Part shown: piece by piece, positions 44,053 through 56,213 of the stretch
Numbering within the stretch: position 1 is the stretch's first letter
Layout: every line of letters starts with the position of its first letter
From: Lachnoclostridium sp. An118
GTDB taxonomy: Bacteria > Bacillota > Clostridia > Lachnospirales > Lachnospiraceae
Reading direction: 5' to 3'
DNA: 64,000 bases
Assembly (NCBI RefSeq): GCF_002160985.1
Contig: NZ_NFLQ01000012.1
Coordinates: 1 to 64,000 of the forward strand
Notes under the pieces: generated by a model
The model's database searches: none
Seen by the model: only the letters and a program-made list of their open reading frames with translations
What the model was told of the DNA's origin: nothing
Translations under genes and position numbers: made by a program

Positions 44053-44907
44053 ATGACAGAGAAAAAGTATATAGACTGGAAAGACGATATGGCACGCTTT
44101 GAGGCGTACCTGAGGGAGCAGGAGAGCGCTGAGGCGACAGTGGCAAAGTATTTGCGGGATATCCGTACATTTATGACGTTTGCTGAGGGACGGACATGGA
44201 TTGAGAAGAGTGATATCCTGCGCTATAAAGACTGGCTGATGGAGAACTACAGCGTGAACAGCGCCAACTCTATGATCGTTGCGCTCAACCAGTTTCTGAT
44301 CTTTATGGAGGCGGGGCGCATGAGGGTCCGCCGGATCAGGGTGCAGGCACAGGGGTTCCGCAGCGGGGAAAAAGAGCTGTGTAAGGAGGAATTTCGCAGG
44401 CTTGTCTGTCAGGCGCGGACGAGCGGACGCCCTCAGATCGCCATGATCATGGAGACTATATGTGCCACGGGGATTCGCGTCAGCGAGTTGAAATTTTTTC
44501 AGGCAGACAATGTGAAAACTGGTGCTGTGAGAGTGTGGAACAAAGGAAAGTACCGGATCGTGCTCATCCCGGATAAGCTTCGCCGGAAGCTGCTTGCCTA
44601 CATGGCCAAGTACGGAATTAAGTCCGGCCCTCTGTTCCGCACACGGTCGGGCAGAGCGAAGGACCGCTCCAACATTTGGCGGGAGATGAAGGAACTGGCT
44701 GGTGAGGCCGGCGTGGACGCCGGCAAAGTGTTCCCTCACAACCTGCGGCATCTCTTTGCAAGAACCTTTTACCGGGTAACAAAGAACCTGCTCCATCTGG
44801 CGGATATCCTGGGACATAGCAGTCTGGAAGTGACGAGGATCTACGCCTGCGATGGCATCAGCGAATGTAGAAAAAGTCTGGAACGCCTGGAGCTGATAGA
44901 CGGATAA
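44053..44907 (+). CDS. Tyrosine recombinase, likely invertase of the pilus switch
   Basis: The 284-residue protein has an N-terminal SAM-like DNA-binding domain (about 10-90) and a catalytic domain with all expected residues: Arg142 (ATGIRVSEL), Lys164/166 (NKGKYR), His229-x-x-Arg232 (HNLRH), His255 (ILGHSS) and Tyr264 (RIYA). The gene has the size of stand-alone DNA invertases (XerC/FimB-like). It ends 10 bases before the left inverted repeat of a promoter-bearing segment (44918-45126), and both are directly upstream of the pilus operon. AAAGGA precedes the ATG. Role as inverter is inferred from this layout. Confidence 0.88.
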   Translation: MTEKKYIDWKDDMARFEAYLREQESAEATVAKYLRDIRTFMTFAEGRTWIEKSDILRYKDWLMENYSVNSANSMIVALNQFLIFMEAGRMRVRRIRVQAQGFRSGEKELCKEEFRRLVCQARTSGRPQIAMIMETICATGIRVSELKFFQADNVKTGAVRVWNKGKYRIVLIPDKLRRKLLAYMAKYGIKSGPLFRTRSGRAKDRSNIWREMKELAGEAGVDAGKVFPHNLRHLFARTFYRVTKNLLHLADILGHSSLEVTRIYACDGISECRKSLERLELIDG

Positions 44908-44917
44908 TAAAAAATAT

Positions 44918-44936
44918 CACATAATATTTGTTATGT
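44918..44936 (+). repeat. Left inverted repeat of the pilus switch
   Basis: CACATAATATTTGTTATGT. It is itself a dyad, ACATAA and TTATGT around the asymmetric 6-base centre TATTTG, which is the shape of a tyrosine-recombinase crossover site. An exact reverse complement lies at 45108-45126. Confidence 0.9.
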
Positions 44937-45044
44937 TGTAAAAAAAAGGGGGTGTCTGTAGAAAATCGGATTTTGATGGTTGAAGGACAGTCTCTTCTGA
45001 CTGATTTGAACACATTTATTCGTGTAGAAGTACTCGAAAATAGA

Positions 45045-45073
45045 TTGATTTTTAAAAATATGTATTGTACAAT
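45045..45073 (+). promoter_or_regulatory. Promoter inside the invertible segment
   Basis: TTGATT (45045-45050), a 17-base spacer and TACAAT (45068-45073), with the perfect 14-bp palindrome GTATTGTACAATAC (45062-45075) over the -10. It reads toward the operon starting near 45162-45195. No other good plus-strand promoter lies between the recombinase and the first pilus-operon gene. Confidence 0.7.
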
Positions 45074-45107
45074 ACAATAGATTAATAGTTTTGCGCAAAA
45101 AGATATC

Positions 45108-45126
45108 ACATAACAAATATTATGTG
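45108..45126 (-). repeat. Right inverted repeat of the pilus switch
   Basis: ACATAACAAATATTATGTG, the exact reverse complement of 44918-44936. In the plus-strand RNA its arms CACATAA/TTATGTG form a weak 7-bp hairpin followed by GTTTTTT, so it could also attenuate transcription. Confidence 0.9.
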
Positions 45127-45161
45127 GTTTTTTCTGTTTCCAGATCTGCGCATATAGCGTT

Positions 45162-46508
45162 GTGGAGACACCAGCGCTTGAGGAGGCGGATATAATTGGA
45201 AAAGTAGATCATAGACTCATTGCGGGTCTTCTGCTTGCATTGATCATTTTCACAGCCTGCGGGACGGCAGTCACTGTCCTAACCAGTTTGACAGGACTTG
45301 CTCTGTGTATGATGGGACTGCTGTGGCCGGAAAGCAGCGCGGATCTGCGGATGGCAATCCTGCTGGTTATATGCAGTGGGACAGGTCTTCTGTCAGCAGC
45401 TGTAACTGCCGGCGATCCCTTTCAGGGCTACGTGTATGGTCAGAGTGTATGTCCGGTGCTTGCCCTTTTGGCGGCTTTGCCGGATGTGAAGGAGAGGGAG
45501 CGTCTGCGAGGGATAAGTATTGTATGGTCCGCAGTGATAGCGGCGGCAGATATAGCGCAGTTTTTGCGGGATACGGCAGCAGGGGTGCCGGGAAGGATCG
45601 GAGGTATCTTTGGAAATGCGAACGTTATGGGGATTTTTCTTGTCATTAGCTGGTTTGCCCTTGCGGATTTCAGGGAGAGGCAGGATCCGAAGAGCAGGTT
45701 CCGGTTGCTGCTGTATGCGGAACCGTTGTTTCTGTATGCGGCTGCGCTCACCCTTTCCATGGGAAGCTATGCGGCGATGGCGGCAGGAATCGTTGTGGCT
45801 ACTGTGTGCGGCAGACGGGAAAAACTCCTGCTTACTCTGGCAAAAGCAGTGATGGGGACAGGTTCCGGCCTGCTCATCTACATTGCGGCGGTTCAAGCGG
45901 ATGCGGGATGGCTCTGCGCGGCGGCTGTGATGTACATGGCTGTACAGGCCGCCTTGTGGGGCAGGCTGGAGCGGTTTCTGTCCCTGCACAGGAAAACGGC
46001 AGCGTTCATCTCCGGGACCGGTATCCTGGTGGCCAGTTCCGCAGCAGTGCTCCGGCCCAATGCGGCAGCTACGTTTGCGGAGCGACTTGAGATGATGGAA
46101 AACGGCCTGCACTACATTGCATCCAGTCCGATTTGGGGGACAGGCCCGCTTCAGTGGCACCTTTTGAATATGTTTGACCCGAAATGTTTTAACACATGGT
46201 ATATCCATAACATGTTTATCCATGTCGGCGTGGAGCTGGGTGTGTGCGCCATGTTTCCCCTTGTTCTTGCGGCAGTCCTGTGCCTGGCAAAAAAACGGCC
46301 GCCGCAGCTGCGGGCCGGTCTGGCGGCGCTGTTTATCCACTATGTTCTGGATGTGGGATTCGCATATACGGGCCTGACGGCAGCCGCAGTGCTGCTTCTT
46401 GGCACTTCGGACGGGGGAAAGCGCCCGCGGAGAACGGTGGCGGCAAGGCCGTTTTATGCAGCGTTTGCAGTTCTGTTTGTCTGCGGACTGCTCCGGCATA
46501 TAAGGTAA
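45162..46508 (+). CDS. O-antigen-ligase-like membrane protein
   Basis: A protein of about 440 residues with 11-12 hydrophobic segments. GIFGNANVMGIFLVISWFAL, LSMGSYAAMAAG and ASSPIWGTGPLQWH match the pattern of the O-antigen ligase / Wzy family (PF04932 type), which transfers lipid-linked glycans at the outer face of the membrane. The start is unclear: GTG at 45162 has no ribosome site, while AGGAGG lies eight bases before an in-frame ATT at 45195. It is the first gene after the switch and may glycosylate pili or the cell surface. Confidence 0.7.
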   Translation: METPALEEADIIGKVDHRLIAGLLLALIIFTACGTAVTVLTSLTGLALCMMGLLWPESSADLRMAILLVICSGTGLLSAAVTAGDPFQGYVYGQSVCPVLALLAALPDVKERERLRGISIVWSAVIAAADIAQFLRDTAAGVPGRIGGIFGNANVMGIFLVISWFALADFRERQDPKSRFRLLLYAEPLFLYAAALTLSMGSYAAMAAGIVVATVCGRREKLLLTLAKAVMGTGSGLLIYIAAVQADAGWLCAAAVMYMAVQAALWGRLERFLSLHRKTAAFISGTGILVASSAAVLRPNAAATFAERLEMMENGLHYIASSPIWGTGPLQWHLLNMFDPKCFNTWYIHNMFIHVGVELGVCAMFPLVLAAVLCLAKKRPPQLRAGLAALFIHYVLDVGFAYTGLTAAAVLLLGTSDGGKRPRRTVAARPFYAAFAVLFVCGLLRHIR

Positions 46509-46521
46509 AGGAGTGACTGAG

Positions 46522-47205
46522 GTGAGCAGGAAAGAGACAGTAAGTATATGGATCCTTCTGTCGGCCTTCTTCTGTCTGGCCGTGCTGACTGCTGTGATGT
46601 GGCACGTTTCGAGGACTGAGGTCCCGGCGTACACAGGCCGGGAGCTGACCGGGGTGAAGAAGGAGGAAGTGGCCGGGCGGAACAGCCCGCTGACAGAGTA
46701 TATTTACCTTACGCCAAACGCGACCTTTCCAAGAGAAGATAAGATCACGAAGATCACCATCCATCACATGGCGGCGGATCTGAGCCTGGAGGAGGCGGGG
46801 GAGCTGTTTTCCAGGACAGAAGGGAACGCATCCGCCAACTATGCGATCGACAGTGAGGGTCACATCGGTCTGTATGTAGAGGAGAAAGACAGGGCCTGGA
46901 CATCCTCCGATCCGGAGAACGATGCCTGCGCCGTGACGATCGAGGTGGCAAATGATGAGATCGGAGGTCAGTGGCATGTGAGCGATGAGGCCTATGCGGC
47001 GCTGCTCGATCTTTGTACAGATATATGCAGGCGCAACGGGATCCGGCAGCTCACCTTTACGGGGGCGGCGAACGGAAGCCTGACGATGCACCGGATGTTC
47101 AGCGATGAGACGGAGTGTCCGGGGCCGTATCTGGAGAGCCGTATGGCTGAGATTGCGGATGCAGTCAATGAAAGACTGACTCAGGAAAGACAGGATACTT
47201 TTTAA
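46522..47205 (+). CDS. Membrane-anchored N-acetylmuramoyl-L-alanine amidase
   Basis: The protein (227 aa) has an N-terminal membrane helix (IWILLSAFFCLAVLTAVMW) and an amidase_2/PGRP domain with zinc ligands in ITIHHMA, TMHRMF and ECPGPYL, plus the conserved ASANYAIDSEGHIGLYV. Such enzymes cut the MurNAc-L-Ala bond of peptidoglycan. The GTG at 46522 follows AAAGGAG by eight bases; the GTG at 46513 overlaps that site. In a pilus operon it may open the wall for pilus passage or anchoring (inference). Confidence 0.85.
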   Translation: MSRKETVSIWILLSAFFCLAVLTAVMWHVSRTEVPAYTGRELTGVKKEEVAGRNSPLTEYIYLTPNATFPREDKITKITIHHMAADLSLEEAGELFSRTEGNASANYAIDSEGHIGLYVEEKDRAWTSSDPENDACAVTIEVANDEIGGQWHVSDEAYAALLDLCTDICRRNGIRQLTFTGAANGSLTMHRMFSDETECPGPYLESRMAEIADAVNERLTQERQDTF

Positions 47206-47234
47206 TAGAAAAAAGCAGCTGGAGGAAAAGGAGA

Positions 47235-48497
47235 ATGAAAGTGAGAGAAAAACTGAAAATCATATGGTCCGGTGTCATGCTGGCCCTGCTGGGGATACTG
47301 GCCTGTGCGGCGGTTGTCATGGCCGCAGGGAACACATCAGCGGATGTCTATGCAGATCCCTATCAGACAGAGATGACCATCCAAAAGGTATGGGATGACG
47401 CCGGGCAGGAGGATAAGAGGCCGGAGTCTGTGGATGTAAACTACAGGATGACCCTTGTACTGTCAGATAATGCCGGCAAGTCGGAGACGCTGGCCAAGGA
47501 AGGGAGCGTAACACTGAATGAAGCCGGAGGCTGGCAGGCAGTCGTACAGTGGGATTACAGTAGGGAGCCGAAGGAGTTCAAGGGCTCTTACAGCGCGGCG
47601 AACAGGGAATTGACCTTTGAGGTGGAGGAAGTCCGGGTGGACGGCTATGTGGCTGACTATGAATGGGACAAGTCGGGGACAGTCATCATCACCAATACGT
47701 ATACGAATCCGACCGGCGATCTGTCTGTGAAAAAGACCGTATCCGGCGAAGGAGCAGATACTGGGAAAGCTTTTGATTTTACACTGCATCTGACAGACGG
47801 CAGCGGCGCTGCCCTGACAGATGACTACTCCTATGCTGTCTTCGGCGGGGATGGCAGCCAGATCAGCACGGGAACCATCGGAGACGGCGGGACCTTCAGC
47901 CTGTCCCATGGCCAGACGATCACAGTGACCGGTCTGCCGGCGGGGACGCAGTATTCTGTGACGGAAGTGCAGACAGAGGACTACACGTCCGAGATTGTAT
48001 CCGGTCAGGCGTCCGGGATGATCCAGGCCGATGCGGAAGCGGACGTTCTGTTTAACAACAGGCGCGTGGAAGAACAGCCGGAGACAGTTGATCTTTCCGG
48101 GACAAAGACATGGAACGACAGCGATGACCAGGCAGGAGCCCGCCCGGACAGCATTGAGGTCAACCTGTGGAAGGGGGAAACCCTGGTGGCAAAGCAGACA
48201 GTCAGCGAGGAGAGAGGCTGGACATACTGCTTTGCGGATCTCCCAAAGTATGACGACCAGGGCGTCGAGATAACGTATACAGTCACAGAGACACCGGTGG
48301 CCGGGTACACTACGTCTTATGATGGGTACGACATTATAAACACATACACACCGGATCCGGCTGCAGAGAAAGAAAACCCGCCGGCCCCGAAGACAGGAGA
48401 TGCGGCAGATATCGCTCTGACTGGAGCGACGGCGGCTCTGGCAGGTGTTCTGGCAGCCGCAGTTCTGGGAATGAGAAGACGCAGGAACCACAGATAG
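47235..48497 (+). CDS. Cna_B-type pilin or minor surface protein
   Basis: The 420-residue protein has a signal peptide (to about residue 31), an N-terminal Cna_B-like domain (EMTIQKVWDDAGQEDKRPESVDV), a middle repeat (GDLSVKKTVSG, about 160-275), a second Cna_B domain (DLSGTKTWNDSDDQAGARPDSIEVNLWK, about 285-376) and a cell-wall anchor APKTG (about 383), a membrane helix and a basic tail. The anchor lacks the Leu-Pro of LPxTG. Cna_B domains often carry isopeptide bonds. It is probably the basal or minor pilin. Confidence 0.85.
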   Translation: MKVREKLKIIWSGVMLALLGILACAAVVMAAGNTSADVYADPYQTEMTIQKVWDDAGQEDKRPESVDVNYRMTLVLSDNAGKSETLAKEGSVTLNEAGGWQAVVQWDYSREPKEFKGSYSAANRELTFEVEEVRVDGYVADYEWDKSGTVIITNTYTNPTGDLSVKKTVSGEGADTGKAFDFTLHLTDGSGAALTDDYSYAVFGGDGSQISTGTIGDGGTFSLSHGQTITVTGLPAGTQYSVTEVQTEDYTSEIVSGQASGMIQADAEADVLFNNRRVEEQPETVDLSGTKTWNDSDDQAGARPDSIEVNLWKGETLVAKQTVSEERGWTYCFADLPKYDDQGVEITYTVTETPVAGYTTSYDGYDIINTYTPDPAAEKENPPAPKTGDAADIALTGATAALAGVLAAAVLGMRRRRNHR

Positions 48498-48549
48498 AAA
48501 GCGGTAAAAACTGTTCCCCGAAAATGGAGAGGGGAGGAAGGAGAGTGCG

Positions 48550-51500
48550 ATGAGGAAGAAGAAAAGCAGGATCCTTGCGTTTGTACTTTGTATGGCCATG
48601 CTTCTTGGCAACAGCATCCTGTCCTTTGCCGGGGAAAGTGCGGAGGCTGAGGATACGCAGAGCGGGACTGTCGTCCTTATGGGCAGCGCGGCAGACTATG
48701 ATGTCACCCTGACCGGCCCGGCGGAAAGTTTCCCGACAGACGGCGAACTGGCTGTCTCTGTGGAGCAGGTCAGCGCAGATACAGAGGCGCTCGTGAAGAG
48801 TGCGGTGGACGCACAGGCCCAGGCGCAGCAGATGGAAGTGGCGGATTACACCGCACTGGATATCAGGCTTCTCTGCGACGGCCAGGAGGTGCAGCCGCAG
48901 GGGCCGGTGAGCGTGGCCTTTGCCGGGAAGACTACCAGAGAGGCCGGACCGGAGGAGACAAAGGTCTACCATGTGGATGAGACGGCCGGCACGGCGGAAG
49001 ACATGGGCGCATCGGTTGCGGAAGACGGACAGATCACCATGGAGACAGACCACTTCTCCATATATGTGGTGGTGGATCTGGAAGGCCTGGGCGGGAGCAT
49101 TGATCTGACCGTGCAGCACTGGGCCAACCTGGAAATTCTGGACGGCGTTGACGGCAGGGACGGACTTGTAGGGATGGCGGGAGCTGATGGAAAACCCTTT
49201 AACAATCCGGTCAGCCTGAAGACAAAGCAGGAATTCTGTGAGATCTACAGTGACGATGAGATCGAGATGGACAATACGCTCACAAAAAGCGTGGAAGAGC
49301 TCAGCAAGATCCTGCTGTCTGATCCGGATGAGGCGTCCGGGCGCTACGAGCTTGCAGAGGTCTGGTTCCTGGAAGAGGGAGATCCGGACAGCGAAAATGC
49401 CAGGTGGAATAAAAAATCAGCTTCATCAGAGGAAACGGTGACTCTGACAGAAGACACGACCATCCGTTTCGTATACGATCCGGTCACCCAGGACAACGCG
49501 CTTGTCCGGGACGTGACGTTCTACGATTACGATGTCACGGACGGGAAGACCTATAACGCAAACGGACAGGAAGATTCGAACGGCAAGTATCTGAACACGA
49601 CCAACCAGGGCATCAACTCGGGTAGCAATTATTCCGGCGGCGATACTTCAAACAGGCTTGCCGTGGGGCAGGTGGACACCTTTGTCGACCATTCCTATGG
49701 AAACGCCACAGGGAAAAACGGGGTAGCCCTCAACGGGAGAGGAACCAGCGCTGATGTGGCGAAGAAAGGGATTGTAAAGGGGTTTGATGAAAAAAGCGGC
49801 CCTGTCTATGACGGGGTATTCGATCCCGGCCTGTTTACGGACGATCCGAAGACCGGGAAAACAATCCTGCAAGATTATAATCTTGTATTCGATCAAAACG
49901 GAGATACCTATACGCTGACATCCGTCAAAAAGGATGATGGAACAGTCGCCGAAGATAACCTTGACTATCTTACAGATGTATATGATGCGAGCAACAGACA
50001 GATTTTTTCCAATAATTTCTGGCCGCTTGACGAAGAAAAGCATAATAACCAGGATCCTCTCATAGGGGGAACCTATATGGAGTACAGTGCTTTTTATTCA
50101 GACGGAGGCACCAGGGCAACGGCAAATTCAGATGACAATCGGTATCACAACTGGTTCTTCGGGATGCGGTACAGCATGGGTTTTGTCCTTGGCGATTACA
50201 CCGGGCCTCTGAATTATTATTTCCGCGGGGACGATGACTTCTGGCTGTTCGTGGACGGCGAGCTGGCAACAGATCTGGGAGGTATCCACAGTTCTGTCGG
50301 TGAACTCCTGGATCTGAGCGGCTATGTCATGGAAAATCCGGAAAATGGCCCGACAGAAGAAGAGAAGTGGACGCTTCACAGGATCGACATTGTCTATGCA
50401 GAGCGAGGCGCGTTCGGCTCGACCTGCTACATGCAGTTTACCCTTCCGAACCTGCGGCCGGTGGATTTTGACACGGATGTCCCGAAGACGGAGATCACCG
50501 TCCAGAAGAACTGGCAGGATCATAACAATCCGGAGCGTCCGGATTCCATCCAGGTGGAACTCTACTATCAGAAGGACGGGACAACAGAGTGGACACTGTA
50601 CGACACGCAGACTCTGAGCGTGGCAAACGGCTGGACGTACACGTGGAAGGAGATGCCGAAGGAAGGCTACACCTACAAGATCAAAGAAGTGGGAGAAGAG
50701 GATGGCAAGAACGGGAACTATACTGTGACCTACGGATCCGGGGACAAAACGGACGGTACGCTGGCGCCCGGCAGCGGCGCGGATGGTTCCTTTGCCGGTG
50801 TGATCACAAACCGGATCACACCTTCCACATATATCACAGTGAACAAAGTGTGGAATGATCAGAATGATCAGCTTAAGGAGCGTCCGGAGAGCGTGGACTT
50901 CTACTTATATTACAGGCATACCGGAGACACGTCCTGGACGCCTTACCCGGATGGACGCCTCACCCTCACACAGGGAAATGCGCTGGCCGGGGGAGATGGA
51001 AATACCTGGAGTGGAACATATGCGGATCTGCCGGTTTACGCAGCAGACGGGAAGACATTGCTGGAGTATACGGTCATGGAGGTCAGCGGTGATACACCCC
51101 TTGGCCAGGGAGACTCCTGCGATGGAGCGGTAACAGAAGATGTCTACACCGTTTCCTATCCGGACAGCCACTTCGGTGCGGATGGTACATGGAATGGATA
51201 CAAGGCGATGGAAAATGATGAGACAATGAACCTGACGGTGACCAATGTCGTGCCGCAGCCATGGCAGCTTATCAAGCGGAGCAGTACATCGGAAGACCTG
51301 ACACTGCCCGGAGCTCAGTTTACACTGACAGGCCCCGCAGGCGGAACATCCGTGACTCTTACCGGCGAGTCGGGTAAGGATGGGGTCATACAGTGGACAG
51401 ATGCGTCAGGAGCGCCGTTTACAGGATTTTTGAAGGACGGAAGCTATACGCTGAAAGAGACGGCTGCGCCGACAGGATACAAGCTGGAGACCGATGAATG

Positions 51501-51729
51501 GACGTTAAAGATCGAAAATGGGAAGCCGGTCATGATCGCAGCCGGACAGGAGGATAAAGGCAGCATCGAAGGCGATATTGTAACTTTCTATTTTGACAAC
51601 GAGCCCATGTACGCGCTTCCGAGCTCCGGGGGTCCGGGCATCTATGTGCCTGTCATCGGCGGCATCCTGCTGATGGCATCGGGCGCGCTGGCAGGTTTCA
51701 GATACAGAAGGAAAGGATACAGAAAATAA
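48550..51729 (+). CDS. Large pilus tip adhesin with fibro-slime/PA14-like domain
   Basis: The 1059-residue protein has a signal peptide (about 1-28), an N-terminal surface domain (30-180), a fibro-slime/PA14-like region (about 318-636: YYFRGDDDFWLFVDGELATD, LGGIH, HRIDIVYAERGAFGS), two Cna_B domains (about 648-755 and 758-897, each with a KNW/KVW motif and ERPDSI/ERPESV), a SpaA-type domain (about 902-997, GAQFTLTG and APTGYKL) and an anchor LPSSG (about 1022) with membrane helix and basic tail. The domain order fits a tip adhesin. The last Cna_B shares a clear pattern with those in the first pilin. Confidence 0.88.
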   Translation: MRKKKSRILAFVLCMAMLLGNSILSFAGESAEAEDTQSGTVVLMGSAADYDVTLTGPAESFPTDGELAVSVEQVSADTEALVKSAVDAQAQAQQMEVADYTALDIRLLCDGQEVQPQGPVSVAFAGKTTREAGPEETKVYHVDETAGTAEDMGASVAEDGQITMETDHFSIYVVVDLEGLGGSIDLTVQHWANLEILDGVDGRDGLVGMAGADGKPFNNPVSLKTKQEFCEIYSDDEIEMDNTLTKSVEELSKILLSDPDEASGRYELAEVWFLEEGDPDSENARWNKKSASSEETVTLTEDTTIRFVYDPVTQDNALVRDVTFYDYDVTDGKTYNANGQEDSNGKYLNTTNQGINSGSNYSGGDTSNRLAVGQVDTFVDHSYGNATGKNGVALNGRGTSADVAKKGIVKGFDEKSGPVYDGVFDPGLFTDDPKTGKTILQDYNLVFDQNGDTYTLTSVKKDDGTVAEDNLDYLTDVYDASNRQIFSNNFWPLDEEKHNNQDPLIGGTYMEYSAFYSDGGTRATANSDDNRYHNWFFGMRYSMGFVLGDYTGPLNYYFRGDDDFWLFVDGELATDLGGIHSSVGELLDLSGYVMENPENGPTEEEKWTLHRIDIVYAERGAFGSTCYMQFTLPNLRPVDFDTDVPKTEITVQKNWQDHNNPERPDSIQVELYYQKDGTTEWTLYDTQTLSVANGWTYTWKEMPKEGYTYKIKEVGEEDGKNGNYTVTYGSGDKTDGTLAPGSGADGSFAGVITNRITPSTYITVNKVWNDQNDQLKERPESVDFYLYYRHTGDTSWTPYPDGRLTLTQGNALAGGDGNTWSGTYADLPVYAADGKTLLEYTVMEVSGDTPLGQGDSCDGAVTEDVYTVSYPDSHFGADGTWNGYKAMENDETMNLTVTNVVPQPWQLIKRSSTSEDLTLPGAQFTLTGPAGGTSVTLTGESGKDGVIQWTDASGAPFTGFLKDGSYTLKETAAPTGYKLETDEWTLKIENGKPVMIAAGQEDKGSIEGDIVTFYFDNEPMYALPSSGGPGIYVPVIGGILLMASGALAGFRYRRKGYRK

Positions 51730-51765
51730 AGAGGGGAGAGAAGATCTCTCCGGGAAGGAGCAGTT

Positions 51766-53457
51766 ATGAACAGAGGAAAGAAGCTTTTTGCATTCCTGCT
51801 TGCGGCTGTCATGATCCTGGCAATGGGCATGACAGGCTTTGCGGCAAACGGGAAACCACAGGCATCCGACAGGGCGGATGTGACGATCACAGGGATCACC
51901 GGGGATCCGACAGTGACCCTGTATCAGATTGCAAGGGCAAACTACGGGCCCGGCGATAGGGAGCTGGTGGACTACACATGGGCGGCCGGGGTGACCTTTG
52001 CTAATGAGCAGGCACCTACGGCAGATGAGATCAACGCTGCGGCGAAGGGACTGACAGGCGGAACCATCACTCCCCTTGCAACCATGAGCGGCACCCTGAC
52101 AGGGGAGACCTACACGGCCAATGTGCCGGCCGGCGTGTACATTGCGGTGCTCACAGGTGCGGCGGACGGCTCTGTCTACAACCCGGTCCTTCTGGCGGCC
52201 ACATACGGCGAGGAGGGAAATGTTGTTGTGGATAATCCCAAGCAGGTAAATGCAGGGGATGCGTATCTCTTTGGGATGACAGCTGTTCTGAAGAAGACGA
52301 CGCCGGATGTGGACAAGACCATCACCGGCGGGACGGTAGAAGATGACGGTAGGGATACAGTCGGCATTGGCTCTGTCGTGGACTATCAAGTAGAGATGAC
52401 CATGCCTTCCTACCCGGCCAATGCTGCGAACAAGACACTTTTCCTTACAGACCGGCTCACGGCAGGGCTGACCTTTGATTACAGCACACTGACTGTGACG
52501 GTCGAAGGGCAGACGGTGACAAGAACCGGAGATACATTTATTTTAAACGGCAAAGTGATCGCCACGGCAGCGGAAAAGGACAATGGATTTAACCTGAATT
52601 TTAACTATGACAATCTGGTGTCTAATGCGGCGGGCGCTGTCTACACGCCGATCGTTACATACAGTGCGGTTGTGAACGACACAGCCGTTGTGGGCGCTGC
52701 GGGCAACCCCAATGACGTGACTTACTACTATGCGAACGAGCCGAATACAGGCAATACATGGGATGAGGTGACAGAGGAGCCGGATGAGGCGCCGGGCGTG
52801 ACCAGCAAGAAGGATCAGGAGACGGTATACACCTATCAGCTGGCATTTCAGAAGACAGACGCCGAGACAGACAAGCCCCTGGCAGATGCGGTCTTTGGCA
52901 TCTACAGCGATGCGGACTGCACACAGCTCATCGACAAGGTGATGACAAATCAGGAGGGTTACGCCGTTTCCACCAAGGTGGCAAAAGGCACCTACTATAT
53001 CAAAGAACTTGTGGCACCCACCGGGTACAGCCTGAATACGACAGTATATCCAATCGAGGCTTCCTGGAAGACAGCCACCACAACCGTCACAGGCTCCGTG
53101 ACAAATGCGCAGTACACGACGCAGAAGCCTTCTGATGACGCGGTGCAGGTTGGATGGATCAAGGATGGCCGGTACTACTCCATGGCTGCAGTGGCGGAAG
53201 AGGAAGCGGCGGCAGGCGGCTATCAGGCGGCCTACCTGACGGCTCAGAGCACGACCACAAGCACGGTTACAACGGTAACAGAGAACGGAGCGGGCAGTGG
53301 AACGGCCCTTTTGGGCGATGAGATCCCCAATACGCAGATGCACGCCCTTCCTTCCACCGGCGGCATGGGTACCGTGCTCTTTACGGTCGGAGGTATTGTG
53401 ATCATGGCGGCAGCCGCTGTGCTCTTCTTCCTGAGCAGGAGAAAGACGGACAGATAG
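51766..53457 (+). CDS. Major pilin, SpaH/EbpB type
   Basis: The 563-residue protein has a signal peptide (1-26), an N-terminal domain, an isopeptide-forming D2 domain (about 180-330), a SpaA domain with E-box-like YYIKELVAPTGYSL (about 365-440) and a canonical LPSTGG anchor (about 528-533), membrane helix and basic tail. VVVDNPKQVN with Lys159 is a candidate pilin motif for sortase cross-linking. It is directly before the two class C sortases. The DNA carries an unusually clean Thr/Ala-rich composition, typical of secreted pilins. Confidence 0.9.
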   Translation: MNRGKKLFAFLLAAVMILAMGMTGFAANGKPQASDRADVTITGITGDPTVTLYQIARANYGPGDRELVDYTWAAGVTFANEQAPTADEINAAAKGLTGGTITPLATMSGTLTGETYTANVPAGVYIAVLTGAADGSVYNPVLLAATYGEEGNVVVDNPKQVNAGDAYLFGMTAVLKKTTPDVDKTITGGTVEDDGRDTVGIGSVVDYQVEMTMPSYPANAANKTLFLTDRLTAGLTFDYSTLTVTVEGQTVTRTGDTFILNGKVIATAAEKDNGFNLNFNYDNLVSNAAGAVYTPIVTYSAVVNDTAVVGAAGNPNDVTYYYANEPNTGNTWDEVTEEPDEAPGVTSKKDQETVYTYQLAFQKTDAETDKPLADAVFGIYSDADCTQLIDKVMTNQEGYAVSTKVAKGTYYIKELVAPTGYSLNTTVYPIEASWKTATTTVTGSVTNAQYTTQKPSDDAVQVGWIKDGRYYSMAAVAEEEAAAGGYQAAYLTAQSTTTSTVTTVTENGAGSGTALLGDEIPNTQMHALPSTGGMGTVLFTVGGIVIMAAAAVLFFLSRRKTDR

Positions 53458-53488
53458 AGATAAGCAGGAGGAAGTCCTGAAGGAATTG

Positions 53489-53527
53489 AGTGAACATACC
53501 GGAGCAGACCGCTTCGGTATGTTCACT
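53489..53527 (+). terminator. Intercistronic hairpin, pilin / sortase
   Basis: A perfect 13-bp inverted repeat (53489-53501 with 53515-53527, AGTGAACATACCG / CGGTATGTTCACT) with a 13-base loop sits between the major pilin and the first sortase gene. The T run after it is short (GCTTT), so it may act as a partial terminator or an RNA-stabilising element that keeps pilin in excess over sortase. Confidence 0.6.
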
Positions 53528-53575
53528 GCTTTAAGGGGGATTTGCATAGATTTTTCGTCAGAAGGGAGTGACTGG

Positions 53576-54421
53576 ATGAAGAGGACAGTAGCGGGAGCCC
53601 TTGTGGCACTGCTGTTTCTGGCCGGTTTGTCTTTGCTTGCCTATCCGTTTGTGGCAAATGTATGGAATGATCACCGGCAAAAGCAACTGATGGACAGCTA
53701 TCAGGAGACAGTTACAGAGAGAGAGACTGGAGGAGAGATTGATTATGAAGCCGAATGGCAGCGGGCGAGGGTGTATAATCAGGGACTTTTGCCAACGATC
53801 CTCCCGGATTCCTTCGCCGTGGCTGCCGCAGAGAAGGAGCCTGGCCGGGAATATATGGCCTGCCTTAATCTGGCAGGCGATGGGATCATGGGAAGTGTGG
53901 AAATCCCGAAAATTGATGTTACACTGCCGGTTTTCCACACGACAGCGAAAAATATCCTGCAGCAGGGCGCAGGCCATCTGGAGGGGAGCTCACTGCCTGT
54001 CGGCGGAGAGGGAACGCACGCTGTGATCTCCGCCCACAGAGGCCTCCCCAGCGCGGCGCTTTTTACTGACTTGGACAAGCTGGAGGAAGGAGATCATTTC
54101 CTACTCAGGGTGTTAGACGATACTCTCTGCTATGAGGTGGACAAAATTTCGGTCGTAGATCCGGAGGACACAGGCAATCTGGCTGTAGAGGACACGGAAG
54201 ATCTGGTGACGCTTCTTACCTGTACGCCATATGGGGTGAATACACAGCGTCTCCTTGTGAGGGGACACCGGGTTCCCTATGACCCGGAACTGGTGGAGAT
54301 GGAGAAGCCGGGAGTTCTGATCGGCAGTCTCCACACGAACTATCTGTTCTGGCTGCTGTTTGGCCTGGCTGTGACGGCGGCGCTTGTATTCTGCCTATAC
54401 CGAAGGGAGAGAAAGCGATGA
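53576..54421 (+). CDS. Class C sortase 1
   Basis: The protein (281 aa) has N- and C-terminal membrane helices and the sortase catalytic residues His154 (SAHRG), Cys216 (LLTCTPYG) and Arg225 (QRLLVRGHR). A DSF segment at 78-80 fits the class C lid (DxF/W) that covers the active site. Class C sortases join pilin subunits by isopeptide bonds. The ATG at 53576 follows AAGGGAG. Its stop overlaps the next gene by four bases. Confidence 0.93.
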   Translation: MKRTVAGALVALLFLAGLSLLAYPFVANVWNDHRQKQLMDSYQETVTERETGGEIDYEAEWQRARVYNQGLLPTILPDSFAVAAAEKEPGREYMACLNLAGDGIMGSVEIPKIDVTLPVFHTTAKNILQQGAGHLEGSSLPVGGEGTHAVISAHRGLPSAALFTDLDKLEEGDHFLLRVLDDTLCYEVDKISVVDPEDTGNLAVEDTEDLVTLLTCTPYGVNTQRLLVRGHRVPYDPELVEMEKPGVLIGSLHTNYLFWLLFGLAVTAALVFCLYRRERKR

Positions 54422-55326
54422 GACGGGCATGGATGCGGACGGCCGCTGTTCTACTTTTTGTGGCAGCAGCGGCACTTCTATCATTTCCGGCCGGGCAGCG
54501 GGCGGTGAGGGGGTACCGGGATGGACTGGAGATCCGGACGTTCGAGGAGAACAAAAGCCAGGAGACAGACGGGTATGTGCGTCTGCGGGAAAGCATGGAA
54601 GAGTACAACAGGCGCATTTTTACTCAGGGCCAGAGCGGGCTGAGCGATGCCTGGGGCTATGAGAAAGGCGCATTTAATTTTGAAGGGACAGGGCTGGATG
54701 ACGAGATGATCGGGTATATCTCGATCCCGGCTATGGATATAAGACTGCCGCTCTATATAGGGGCCAGTGAGGAGAATCTGATGAAGGGGGCCGCCGTCCT
54801 GGCGCAGACCAGCATGCCGCTTGGCGGGGAGGACACGAACTGCGTGATCGCCGGGCACAGAGGCGGTTACTTCGGCCAAGCGGTTTTCAGGGATATCGAG
54901 GTACTGCGGGCTGGCGATACGGTGGAGATCACAAATCTGTGGGAAACGCTGGAGTACGAGGCTGTCAAGTGTATTGTCATATCGCCGGACGACCTGGATG
55001 CGGTGAAGATCCGCCCGGGGAGAGATATGGTCACTCTGGTCACCTGTCATCCCTACACACACAATTATCAGCGGTATGTGGTGTACTGCTCCAGAAGCGG
55101 ACAGGACAAAACGCAGGACAACAGGGGGGAGGAAGCGGCCAGTCTGCCGTACGGTCTGCCGTACGAACCGTCTGGGGATGCGGTGCGAAGGGAGGATATG
55201 CTGACCGCAGTGGGGCTTATCGTCCTGGGTGCGGCGGCAGTTTTTGGTGTAGCAGAAATATACAGGAGAAGGAAGGGCAGGCGGAAGTCATGGAAAAAGA
55301 CAGGGAAAACGGGAAAAAGGATCTGA
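54418..55326 (+). CDS. Class C sortase 2
   Basis: The 302-residue protein has membrane helices at both ends and His147 (AGHRG), Cys210 (VTLVTCHPY) and Arg219 (NYQRY). DAW at 77-79 fits the class C lid. It is translationally coupled to sortase 1 (ATGA) and to the AP2-domain gene, which begins inside its last 37 bases. Two sortases may divide shaft polymerisation and addition of the tip or minor pilin. Confidence 0.92.
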   Translation: MRRAWMRTAAVLLFVAAAALLSFPAGQRAVRGYRDGLEIRTFEENKSQETDGYVRLRESMEEYNRRIFTQGQSGLSDAWGYEKGAFNFEGTGLDDEMIGYISIPAMDIRLPLYIGASEENLMKGAAVLAQTSMPLGGEDTNCVIAGHRGGYFGQAVFRDIEVLRAGDTVEITNLWETLEYEAVKCIVISPDDLDAVKIRPGRDMVTLVTCHPYTHNYQRYVVYCSRSGQDKTQDNRGEEAASLPYGLPYEPSGDAVRREDMLTAVGLIVLGAAAVFGVAEIYRRRKGRRKSWKKTGKTGKRI

Positions 55327-56213
55327 CAGGCCGGCGCTTTGGACATCTTGTTGTCCTCGAGAAGACGCAGCGCAGGGAAAATTGTTATGTAGTGTGGCTG
55401 TGCCGCTGCGACTGCGGAAATACAATCCCCGTGAGCACAAAGAAGCTGACTCGGGGGAGCGTGAAGGACTGCGGCTGTGTCCCGCGGGAGACTGCGAGGA
55501 GAGGAGCCTGTGCGGAGGATCTGACAGGCCGGACTTTTGGGCATCTGACAGCGGTATGCCGGTCTGAGAACCGGGGAGGAAGAACATGCTGGATGTGCCG
55601 CTGCGACTGCGGAGGCGAGAAGATTGTTTCAGCCAGGGACTTAAAGAGCGGAAAAGTCAGAAGCTGTGGCTGTATGTGGCATGTGAAAGGCAGGAATATA
55701 GTAGAGCTGAGCGGGCAGAAGTTTGGCAGGCTGACGGCAGTTTCCCCCACGGGAGAGAGGAATGTGCATGGTACGGTGTACTGGCTGTGCCGCTGCGACT
55801 GCGGCAGTGAGATCATGGTGGCAGAGAGCAGTCTTGTAAGCGGATCCTGTAAGAGCTGCGGCTGTCTGAGGAAGGAGAATCAAAAGAAGATCGGTGGCAG
55901 GCTGCATCGGGTGGACGGCACTTGCGTGGAGTTCCTTGAGAAACGAAAGAGCAGAAGAGACAATAAGAGCGGCTTTCGCGGCGTTTACCAGATGCCGAAC
56001 GGCAGGTACAAAGTCAGTATAGGATTTCGGGGAGAGAGGATATCGCTGGGGACTTACGGAGAGTACAGCGATGCCGTCCGGGCGAGAGTCGAGGCAGAAC
56101 AGCGCATTTACGGCGGCTTCTTAAAAGCATACAGAGAGTGGGAGAAAAAAGCGGCTGCGGATCCGGAATGGGCGAGACGTAATCCTTTTACAACGAAGAC
56201 AGGGCAGGACTGA
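55290..56213 (+). CDS. Triple Cys-rich module protein with AP2 domain
   Basis: The 307-residue cytoplasmic protein has three repeats of about 50 residues (10-63, 77-128, 138-192), each with DLTGRRFGHL-like start, then WLCRCDCG and a closing CGC (five cysteines per module, likely zinc), followed by an AP2-type DNA-binding domain (227-272, SGFRGVYQMPNGRYKV then LGTYGEYSDAVRARVEAE). The 19-base stretch TGTGCCGCTGCGACTGCGG is identical in all three modules, a sign of recent internal duplication. Its ATG is within sortase 2. Similar modules occur in phage and mobile-element proteins. DNA binding is likely; the role in the pilus locus is unknown. Confidence 0.72.
   Translation: MEKDRENGKKDLTGRRFGHLVVLEKTQRRENCYVVWLCRCDCGNTIPVSTKKLTRGSVKDCGCVPRETARRGACAEDLTGRTFGHLTAVCRSENRGGRTCWMCRCDCGGEKIVSARDLKSGKVRSCGCMWHVKGRNIVELSGQKFGRLTAVSPTGERNVHGTVYWLCRCDCGSEIMVAESSLVSGSCKSCGCLRKENQKKIGGRLHRVDGTCVEFLEKRKSRRDNKSGFRGVYQMPNGRYKVSIGFRGERISLGTYGEYSDAVRARVEAEQRIYGGFLKAYREWEKKAAADPEWARRNPFTTKTGQD

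Follow-up and report, generated by a model that had tools for sequence, protein, structure and literature searches.

The window analysed here, the whole 64,000-nucleotide stretch at the start of contig NZ_NFLQ01000012.1 of Lachnoclostridium sp. An118, possesses a locus that, judging by its sequence, is very probably a phase-variation switch (inverton) for a sortase pilus. A tyrosine recombinase gene is followed by a pair of exact 19-base-pair (bp) inverted repeats with 171 bp between them, and then by a pilus operon. Short and intergenic, the segment between the repeats adjoins the gene of a site-specific recombinase, and we consider the locus a real, probably working ON/OFF pilus switch with a distinctive family of sites. 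New here are the dif-like anatomy of the sites, the wide spread of the family and the fact that the cargo is a complete sortase-pilus operon. The switch consists of the following features:

44053–44907, + strand: Xer-type tyrosine recombinase (P0001), presumed invertase; 284 amino acids (aa), Pfam Phage_integrase match
44918–44936, + strand: left recombination site CACATAA-TATTTG-TTATGT
44937–45107, no strand: predicted invertible segment, 171 bp (family median 242 bp, range 147–450 bp, among 104 loci)
45045–45073, + strand: promoter match TTGATT-17-TACAAT facing the operon, predicted ON orientation
45108–45126, − strand: right recombination site, inverted copy (spacer CAAATA on the + strand)

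We hypothesize that the recombinase would bind the half-sites ACATAA/TTATGT on either side of a 6-bp spacer at both segment ends, cut at the spacer edges and exchange strands; since the spacer is asymmetric and inverted between the sites, the product would be an inversion. In the ON state, which is the orientation as sequenced, the segment promoter would read through the right site into the pilus operon, presumably giving one transcript that extends to the AP2-like gene at its end. In the OFF state it would instead face the recombinase gene from its 3′ side, in antisense direction, leaving the operon without its main promoter, with the pilus phenotype expected to follow.

The recombinase and its sites

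An earlier note on this DNA had described an intact tyrosine recombinase gene and had placed 19-bp repeats around a 171-bp interval. Both descriptions are accurate: the gene is a full open reading frame (ORF) of 284 aa with a Pfam Phage_integrase match, and the repeat coordinates are exact, the left repeat starting 10 bp 3′ of the recombinase ORF. The most telling detail, absent from that note, is that each 19-bp arm is a complete two-sided recombinase core site, ACATAA-N6-TTATGT, in which inverted half-sites flank a 6-bp spacer. The spacers of the arms, TATTTG on the left and CAAATA on the right (read on the + strand), are mutual reverse complements. Two inverted half-sites with asymmetric spacers in opposite sense are the geometry for inversion by a tyrosine recombinase. 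The core also resembles that of the E. coli chromosomal dif site, CATAA-TGTATA-TTATG. A dif-like sequence, AGATAA-TGTATA-TTATGT, is present elsewhere in the genome of the window (L244) and is a candidate dif only. In the predicted ON leader RNA (45079–45200), the right site becomes part of a long hairpin (z −2.8), which may have an effect on transcription or translation.

Residues R142, K164/K166, H229, R232, H255 and Y264 of the recombinase, which we take to be the R-K-H-R-H-Y catalytic set, are invariant across 13 aligned relatives. Its nearest solved structures are 4a8e (XerC-like), 5hxy (XerA) and 1a0p (XerD), and this similarity to XerA/XerC/XerD, together with the conserved catalytic residues, places the protein among the Xer-type tyrosine recombinases. 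It falls below the curated NCBIfam cut-offs for the housekeeping equivalogs, scoring 127.6 of 220 bits for XerA, 102.9 of 329.6 for XerD and 93.9 of 335.15 for XerC. The same genome (G000, 57 contigs) encodes two close paralogs, 61 and 62% identical, giving three such recombinases in total. Relatives at E ≤ 1e-30 are found in 96 of the 397 genomes of the family Lachnospiraceae, and an alignment-profile search at E ≤ 1e-40 reveals them in 69 of 391 genomes of the class.

A family of recombination sites in related bacteria

The recombinase matches reaching query residue 260 were kept, and 198 matches collapsed to 158 distinct loci (66 of the 80 named loci remained after this collapsing). The core motif first came to light in the window and the initial 37 loci, and the set used for counting it contains both. 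A motif-free search for inverted repeats recovers the ACATAA/TTATGT core, whole or in part, in 31 of 37 recombinase loci, while a motif search over the 158 loci finds an inverted pair in the first kilobase (kb) downstream of the recombinase in 104. Inverted core pairs occur neither in shuffles nor in any of 110 control windows 2–3 kb downstream; the arrangement of recombinase and inverted pair is far from chance.

The wider half-site consensus is ACnACATAA. The 104 spacers begin with T in 89 cases and end with A in 90, their interior is variable, and 72 of them are distinct. Palindromic spacers are absent, where column shuffles predict 5.8 (P 0.003), and the same holds for the 72 distinct spacers (3.3 expected, P 0.03), both values being uncorrected for relatedness. 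A palindromic spacer would permit deletion besides inversion, so this absence matches the prediction of selection for inversion.

Spacers are shared in 4 of 32 within-genome pairs of loci against 23 of 1738 pairs between genomes, a higher sharing within genomes that is expected from duplication. The notion of one private spacer per switch within a genome therefore holds only partly. A pilus switch and an adhesin-type switch of one genome (L050 and L051 in G005) both have the spacer CATTAA, which makes it conceivable that they recombine with each other. Another locus (G260:C2:187889-188342, L174) has three tandem sites per side, 34 bp apart, whose spacer TAACAA is common with a second locus on C13.

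These relatives also bear on another explanation, namely that the recombinase is the integrase of a former mobile element, beside repeats that have nothing to do with it and form protein-binding or hairpin sites. The protein does match phage integrase families, and the right site falls within the predicted leader hairpin described above. However, the same type of pair occurs in the same place with differing spacers in relatives, no terminator-like site was found in 44850–45250, and Pfam detects no other mobile-element protein among the ten window proteins searched, of which the AP2-like one resembles phage proteins. We consider a mobile-element remnant extremely improbable.

The predicted segment promoter and its orientation

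The inverton reading assigns the operon to a promoter within the segment. The earlier note had pointed to a TTGATT-17-TACAAT promoter facing the pilus operon; the match is present at 45045–45073 on the + strand, and its −10 element ends 34 bp before the right (exit) site. Taken alone, it is not above chance, and a strong reading of the two hexamers by themselves was rejected, as the match does not exceed shuffle level.

The family as a whole is more informative. A single clearly better promoter direction is found in 63 of the 104 segments, compared with about 19 in shuffles. This direction is toward the cargo in 17 loci, the window included, and toward the recombinase in 46 (about 9 and 10 in shuffles, respectively). 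In 51 of the 63 directional segments the −10 element ends 20–60 bp from the exit site, whereas shuffles give about 3.8 of 18.7. Promoters facing both ways across the family imply that assembled genomes show both states, more often OFF, and the window is predicted to be in the ON state.

Evidence for segment inversion

The inversion of the segment proposed in the earlier note was not seen at the locus itself, but homologous segments of relatives do lie in opposite orientations. Among 14 homologous segment pairs, drawn from the hits of an all-versus-all comparison of the 104 segments, six fit better inverted, seven in the same orientation and one in neither. The clearest inverted pair, L202/L209, comes from one genome and has different spacers: segment identity is 0.72 inverted and 0.53 direct, with colinear flanks (0.81 and 0.79). 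The pair L145/L147, from two genomes and with the same spacer, fits at 0.73 inverted versus 0.53; its left flanks agree at 0.87, while the right ones (0.50) are not homologous. With related recombinases, a common spacer and unrelated right flanks, this pair suggests that the switch module has been transferred to different cargo. L184 gives a weaker signal against L188 and L192 (0.60 and 0.61 inverted versus 0.52 and 0.51), and L136 and L138 fit L145 at 0.59 and 0.61 inverted versus 0.49. For the segment of the window itself, the same comparison yielded no relative at E ≤ 1e-5.

Contig ends provide a further line of evidence. Among the matches listed, partial ones being excluded from these counts, 29 contigs end within 450 bp of the recombinase, and a site is visible on 19 of them; eight of the 19 end 0–9 bp past it and five at 123–136 bp. 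The contig-end bias among these matches is 16 versus 6 within 450 bp (p 0.05) and 11 versus 1 within 150 bp (p 0.006), and among the 66 named loci a contig end lies within 450 bp downstream in 15 and upstream in 3. Contig breaks at the site are expected if the reads held both orientations, though breakage may have other causes.

Counter-evidence and alternative explanations

Several observations speak against a working switch. The promoter of the window is weak when taken alone: a scan of 400 bp gives 4 promoter-like sites where shuffles predict 1.8, and its score of 9.5, below the family mean of 10.4, is matched by 20% of 20 segment shuffles. Among the 158 recombinases, 25 with at least 450 bp downstream have no pair of this motif, and a further 29 lack one where the contig ends within 450 bp and are not fully judgeable. 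No copy of the window switch in the opposite orientation was found in the genome collections, which hold one genome per species. The exact site was not found in viral contigs, and no recombinase was confirmed in them. Finally, no terminator was found between recombinase and operon, and transcription starting at the recombinase promoter could therefore reach the operon as a leak when the switch is OFF.

The single orientation known here, together with a promoter match weaker than in many relatives, would also suit a fossil switch, with inherited working parts but this copy locked ON and the operon constitutive. We find this quite unlikely, considering that the recombinase is full length with its invariant residues and that both arms are still identical over 19 bp, an identity which drift would erode. 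Alternatively, transcription continuing from the recombinase promoter may account for most pilus expression, with inversion tuning the recombinase by antisense transcription and not switching the operon. Recombinase and operon are colinear with no terminator-like site between them, a 10/12 promoter match lies upstream of the recombinase gene, and the segment promoter faces the recombinase in 46 of the 63 relatives with a clear direction. However, whichever way it points, the promoter lies close to the exit site, which fits a promoter reading outward, and recombinase genes are usually weakly expressed; we therefore judge this scenario unlikely. The invertible-promoter reading, already advanced in the earlier note, draws support from the cognate-site family, non-palindromic spacers, two-way promoters, inverted homologous segments, site-ending contigs and the locus of a congener (G005) described below.

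At least five of the 25 loci lacking the motif (L123, L144, L193, L240 and L241) have pairs with other arms, ACRGAA-N6-TTCYGT, hinting at a changed site preference inside the recombinase family. An origin of these arms in one clade was rejected, as four changes between the two arm types are needed on the recombinase tree (156 of 158 proteins, quick FastTree, 50 of 153 branches poorly supported).

The pilus operon and the cargo of related switches

The operon downstream of the right site contains class C sortases, pilins with Cna_B/SpaA folds and sorting signals, as is characteristic of a sortase-assembled pilus operon:

45162–46508, + strand: O-antigen ligase-like (Wzy_C) protein by Pfam, first cargo gene; start codon uncertain
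46513–47205, + strand: N-acetylmuramoyl-L-alanine amidase domain protein (Amidase_2) by Pfam
47235–48497, + strand: Cna_B-type pilin-like protein by Pfam
48550–51729, + strand: large pilin-like protein with fibro-slime, Cna_B and SpaA domains
51766–53457, + strand: backbone pilin, GramPos_pilinBB, with LPXTG anchor
53486–54421, + strand: class C sortase
54418–55326, + strand: class C sortase
55251–56213, + strand: AP2-like protein, overlapping the sortase gene; start not fixed exactly

The ligase-like protein, amidase, three pilins (with Cna_B or SpaA domains) and two sortases named in the earlier note were all recovered, whereas its "AP2 protein" has no Pfam AP2 match and resembles phage families labelled HNH endonuclease. 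Only the copy in G005 hits Pfam AP2, at 13.2 bits against a cut-off of 33.3. The start of the first cargo gene is unclear (45162–45198), as the GTG at 45162 has no ribosome-binding-like site, while a GAGGAGG ribosome-binding-like site at 45180–45186 has only ATA/ATT in frame behind it.

The first ORF past the right site was scanned in 97 of the 104 loci, seven with less than 600 bp after that site being left out. It points away from the recombinase in 84 of the 97 loci (92 of 97 with an ORF choice favouring the + strand). Pfam scans, run on proteins cut at 360 aa, identify among 92 first genes signal peptidases I (9, five matching SipW), CpsB/CapC (2), von Willebrand (3) and leucine-rich-repeat proteins (2), and two LoaP antiterminators. 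The 134 second and third genes include capsule synthesis proteins, sortases (5), pilin domains and S-layer domains (2). Related bacteria thus have the same switch design repeatedly, next to surface genes of many kinds.

Operons with sortase and pilins, scanned within 9 kb, stand behind at least 8 of the 80 switches with at least 5 kb of sequence; a sortase is present in 11 of the 80, and L096 has both sortase and pilins. Pilus cargo is clustered on the recombinase tree, yet six changes are needed, so switch modules and cargo have seemingly been re-paired more than once.

For sortase pili of a clostridial bacterium, the locus offers a concrete and easily tested ON/OFF mechanism. The site rule and the breadth of the family may be more useful than the single locus: pairs of ACATAA-N6-TTATGT behind one recombinase family would make phase-variable surface genes findable in numerous Clostridia genomes without reads, and the spacer rule makes crosstalk between switches of one cell predictable and testable.

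Comparison with known switches

Promoter inversion beside a recombinase is a classical mechanism. In the E. coli fim switch (FimB/FimE), a tyrosine recombinase gene adjoins an invertible promoter driving a pilus operon; it differs from the window in its chaperone-usher pili, two recombinases and another site. Among sortase-dependent pili, those of the gut commensal Bifidobacterium breve undergo ON/OFF phase variation, according to the excerpted text of PMC9187656, by replication slippage, whereas DNA inversion is proposed here. A search of titles and abstract beginnings in the open-licence literature returned no report of an invertible promoter controlling a sortase pilus operon.

Of the Gram-positive cases seen, SZO08560 of Streptococcus zooepidemicus H70 comes closest. 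As described in the excerpted account (PMC2654543), a promoter segment lies between 10-bp inverted repeats beside a recombinase gene, was found reversed in five sequence reads and was proposed as an on/off switch for a surface protein. Both systems are Gram-positive, with a promoter segment (in the window a predicted one) between inverted repeats beside a recombinase gene and with surface cargo, but SZO08560 controls one surface protein with Listeria-Bacteroides repeats, while the window cargo is a pilus operon. Its repeats (GTAGACTTTA/TAAAGTCTAC; PMC2654543) differ from those of the window, and the two are likened by layout.

Clostridioides difficile possesses the RecV switches, well-studied examples from a clostridial species, including cwpV and the flagellar switch Cdi4 (excerpts of PMC2784873 and PMC5903667). 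In layout they share with the window a short segment (195 bp at cwpV), inverted repeats (21 bp), a tyrosine recombinase of the XerC/XerD family and surface structures as cargo. RecV serves several switches, whereas here a recombinase stands beside each switch studied. The cwpV segment, according to the same excerpts, acts through a terminator and has no promoter; the window segment, in contrast, has a promoter match and, with none detected in 44850–45250, no terminator-like site.

In the hCom2 gut community (2025), inverton group 139 is linked to invertase group 35. As excerpted from PMC11892184, the group comprises 33 invertons, 32 of them from Clostridia and nearly all near a tyrosine recombinase; it is enriched in the "non-regulatable" orientation, with both orientations detected in reads, and its example from Intestinimonas butyriciproducens has repeats 227 bp apart. 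Set side by side by description and not by motif, group 139 is likely the same family as the window switch. Linking the Intestinimonas example by its published coordinates gave no match among 40, 38 and 70 genomes around G779, G553 and G415, where the strain may be absent. The words sortase, pilus and pili do not occur in the main text of PMC11892184 or of PMC10939037.

Other switches in the same genome and in a congener

The earlier note had suggested a search for the same repeats and recombinase beside pilus operons in relatives, and such an arrangement does exist: in the congener G005 (L050), a recombinase is followed by an inverted pair, a large pilin, a backbone pilin, two sortases and an AP2-like gene.

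Both paralogs in the window's genome have the same core site directly behind them, with different spacers. One (G000:C8, L047:7671-19001) combines the recombinase with an inverted pair whose spacers are CGTTAA/TTAACG; an AP2-like gene comes next, then an adhesin-like ORF exceeding 3061 aa, and the promoter is in the predicted OFF orientation. The other, the third recombinase of this genome (G000:C4:106487-107530, L048), has a left site with spacer CGCTGA on a contig that ends 201 bp past it; the G000 assembly holds no exact partner of this site.

Of the 97 loci scanned, 8 encode an AP2-like protein, the window's own lying past the 9-kb limit. A strict tie of this protein to the switches was rejected: G003 and G004 of the genus also have AP2-like proteins, with no close recombinase and no core site in the stretch around the gene. 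We tentatively speculate, with more doubt than confidence, that a dif-derived recombinase family may form a modular switchboard in Clostridia, in which a symmetric dif-like core is combined with a 6-bp spacer that varies freely, but is never palindromic, as address. Several surface programmes of one cell would then flip independently unless a spacer is shared, and at loci like that of the window an AP2-like DNA-binding protein, its production confined to the ON state, would exert feedback on the switch or the cargo.

A broken AP2-like gene lies at the start of contig C35 (L246). A lone core site, ACATAATAGCAATTATGT (G000:C34:38811-38828, L249), is located upstream of a distant tyrosine recombinase with 25% identity.

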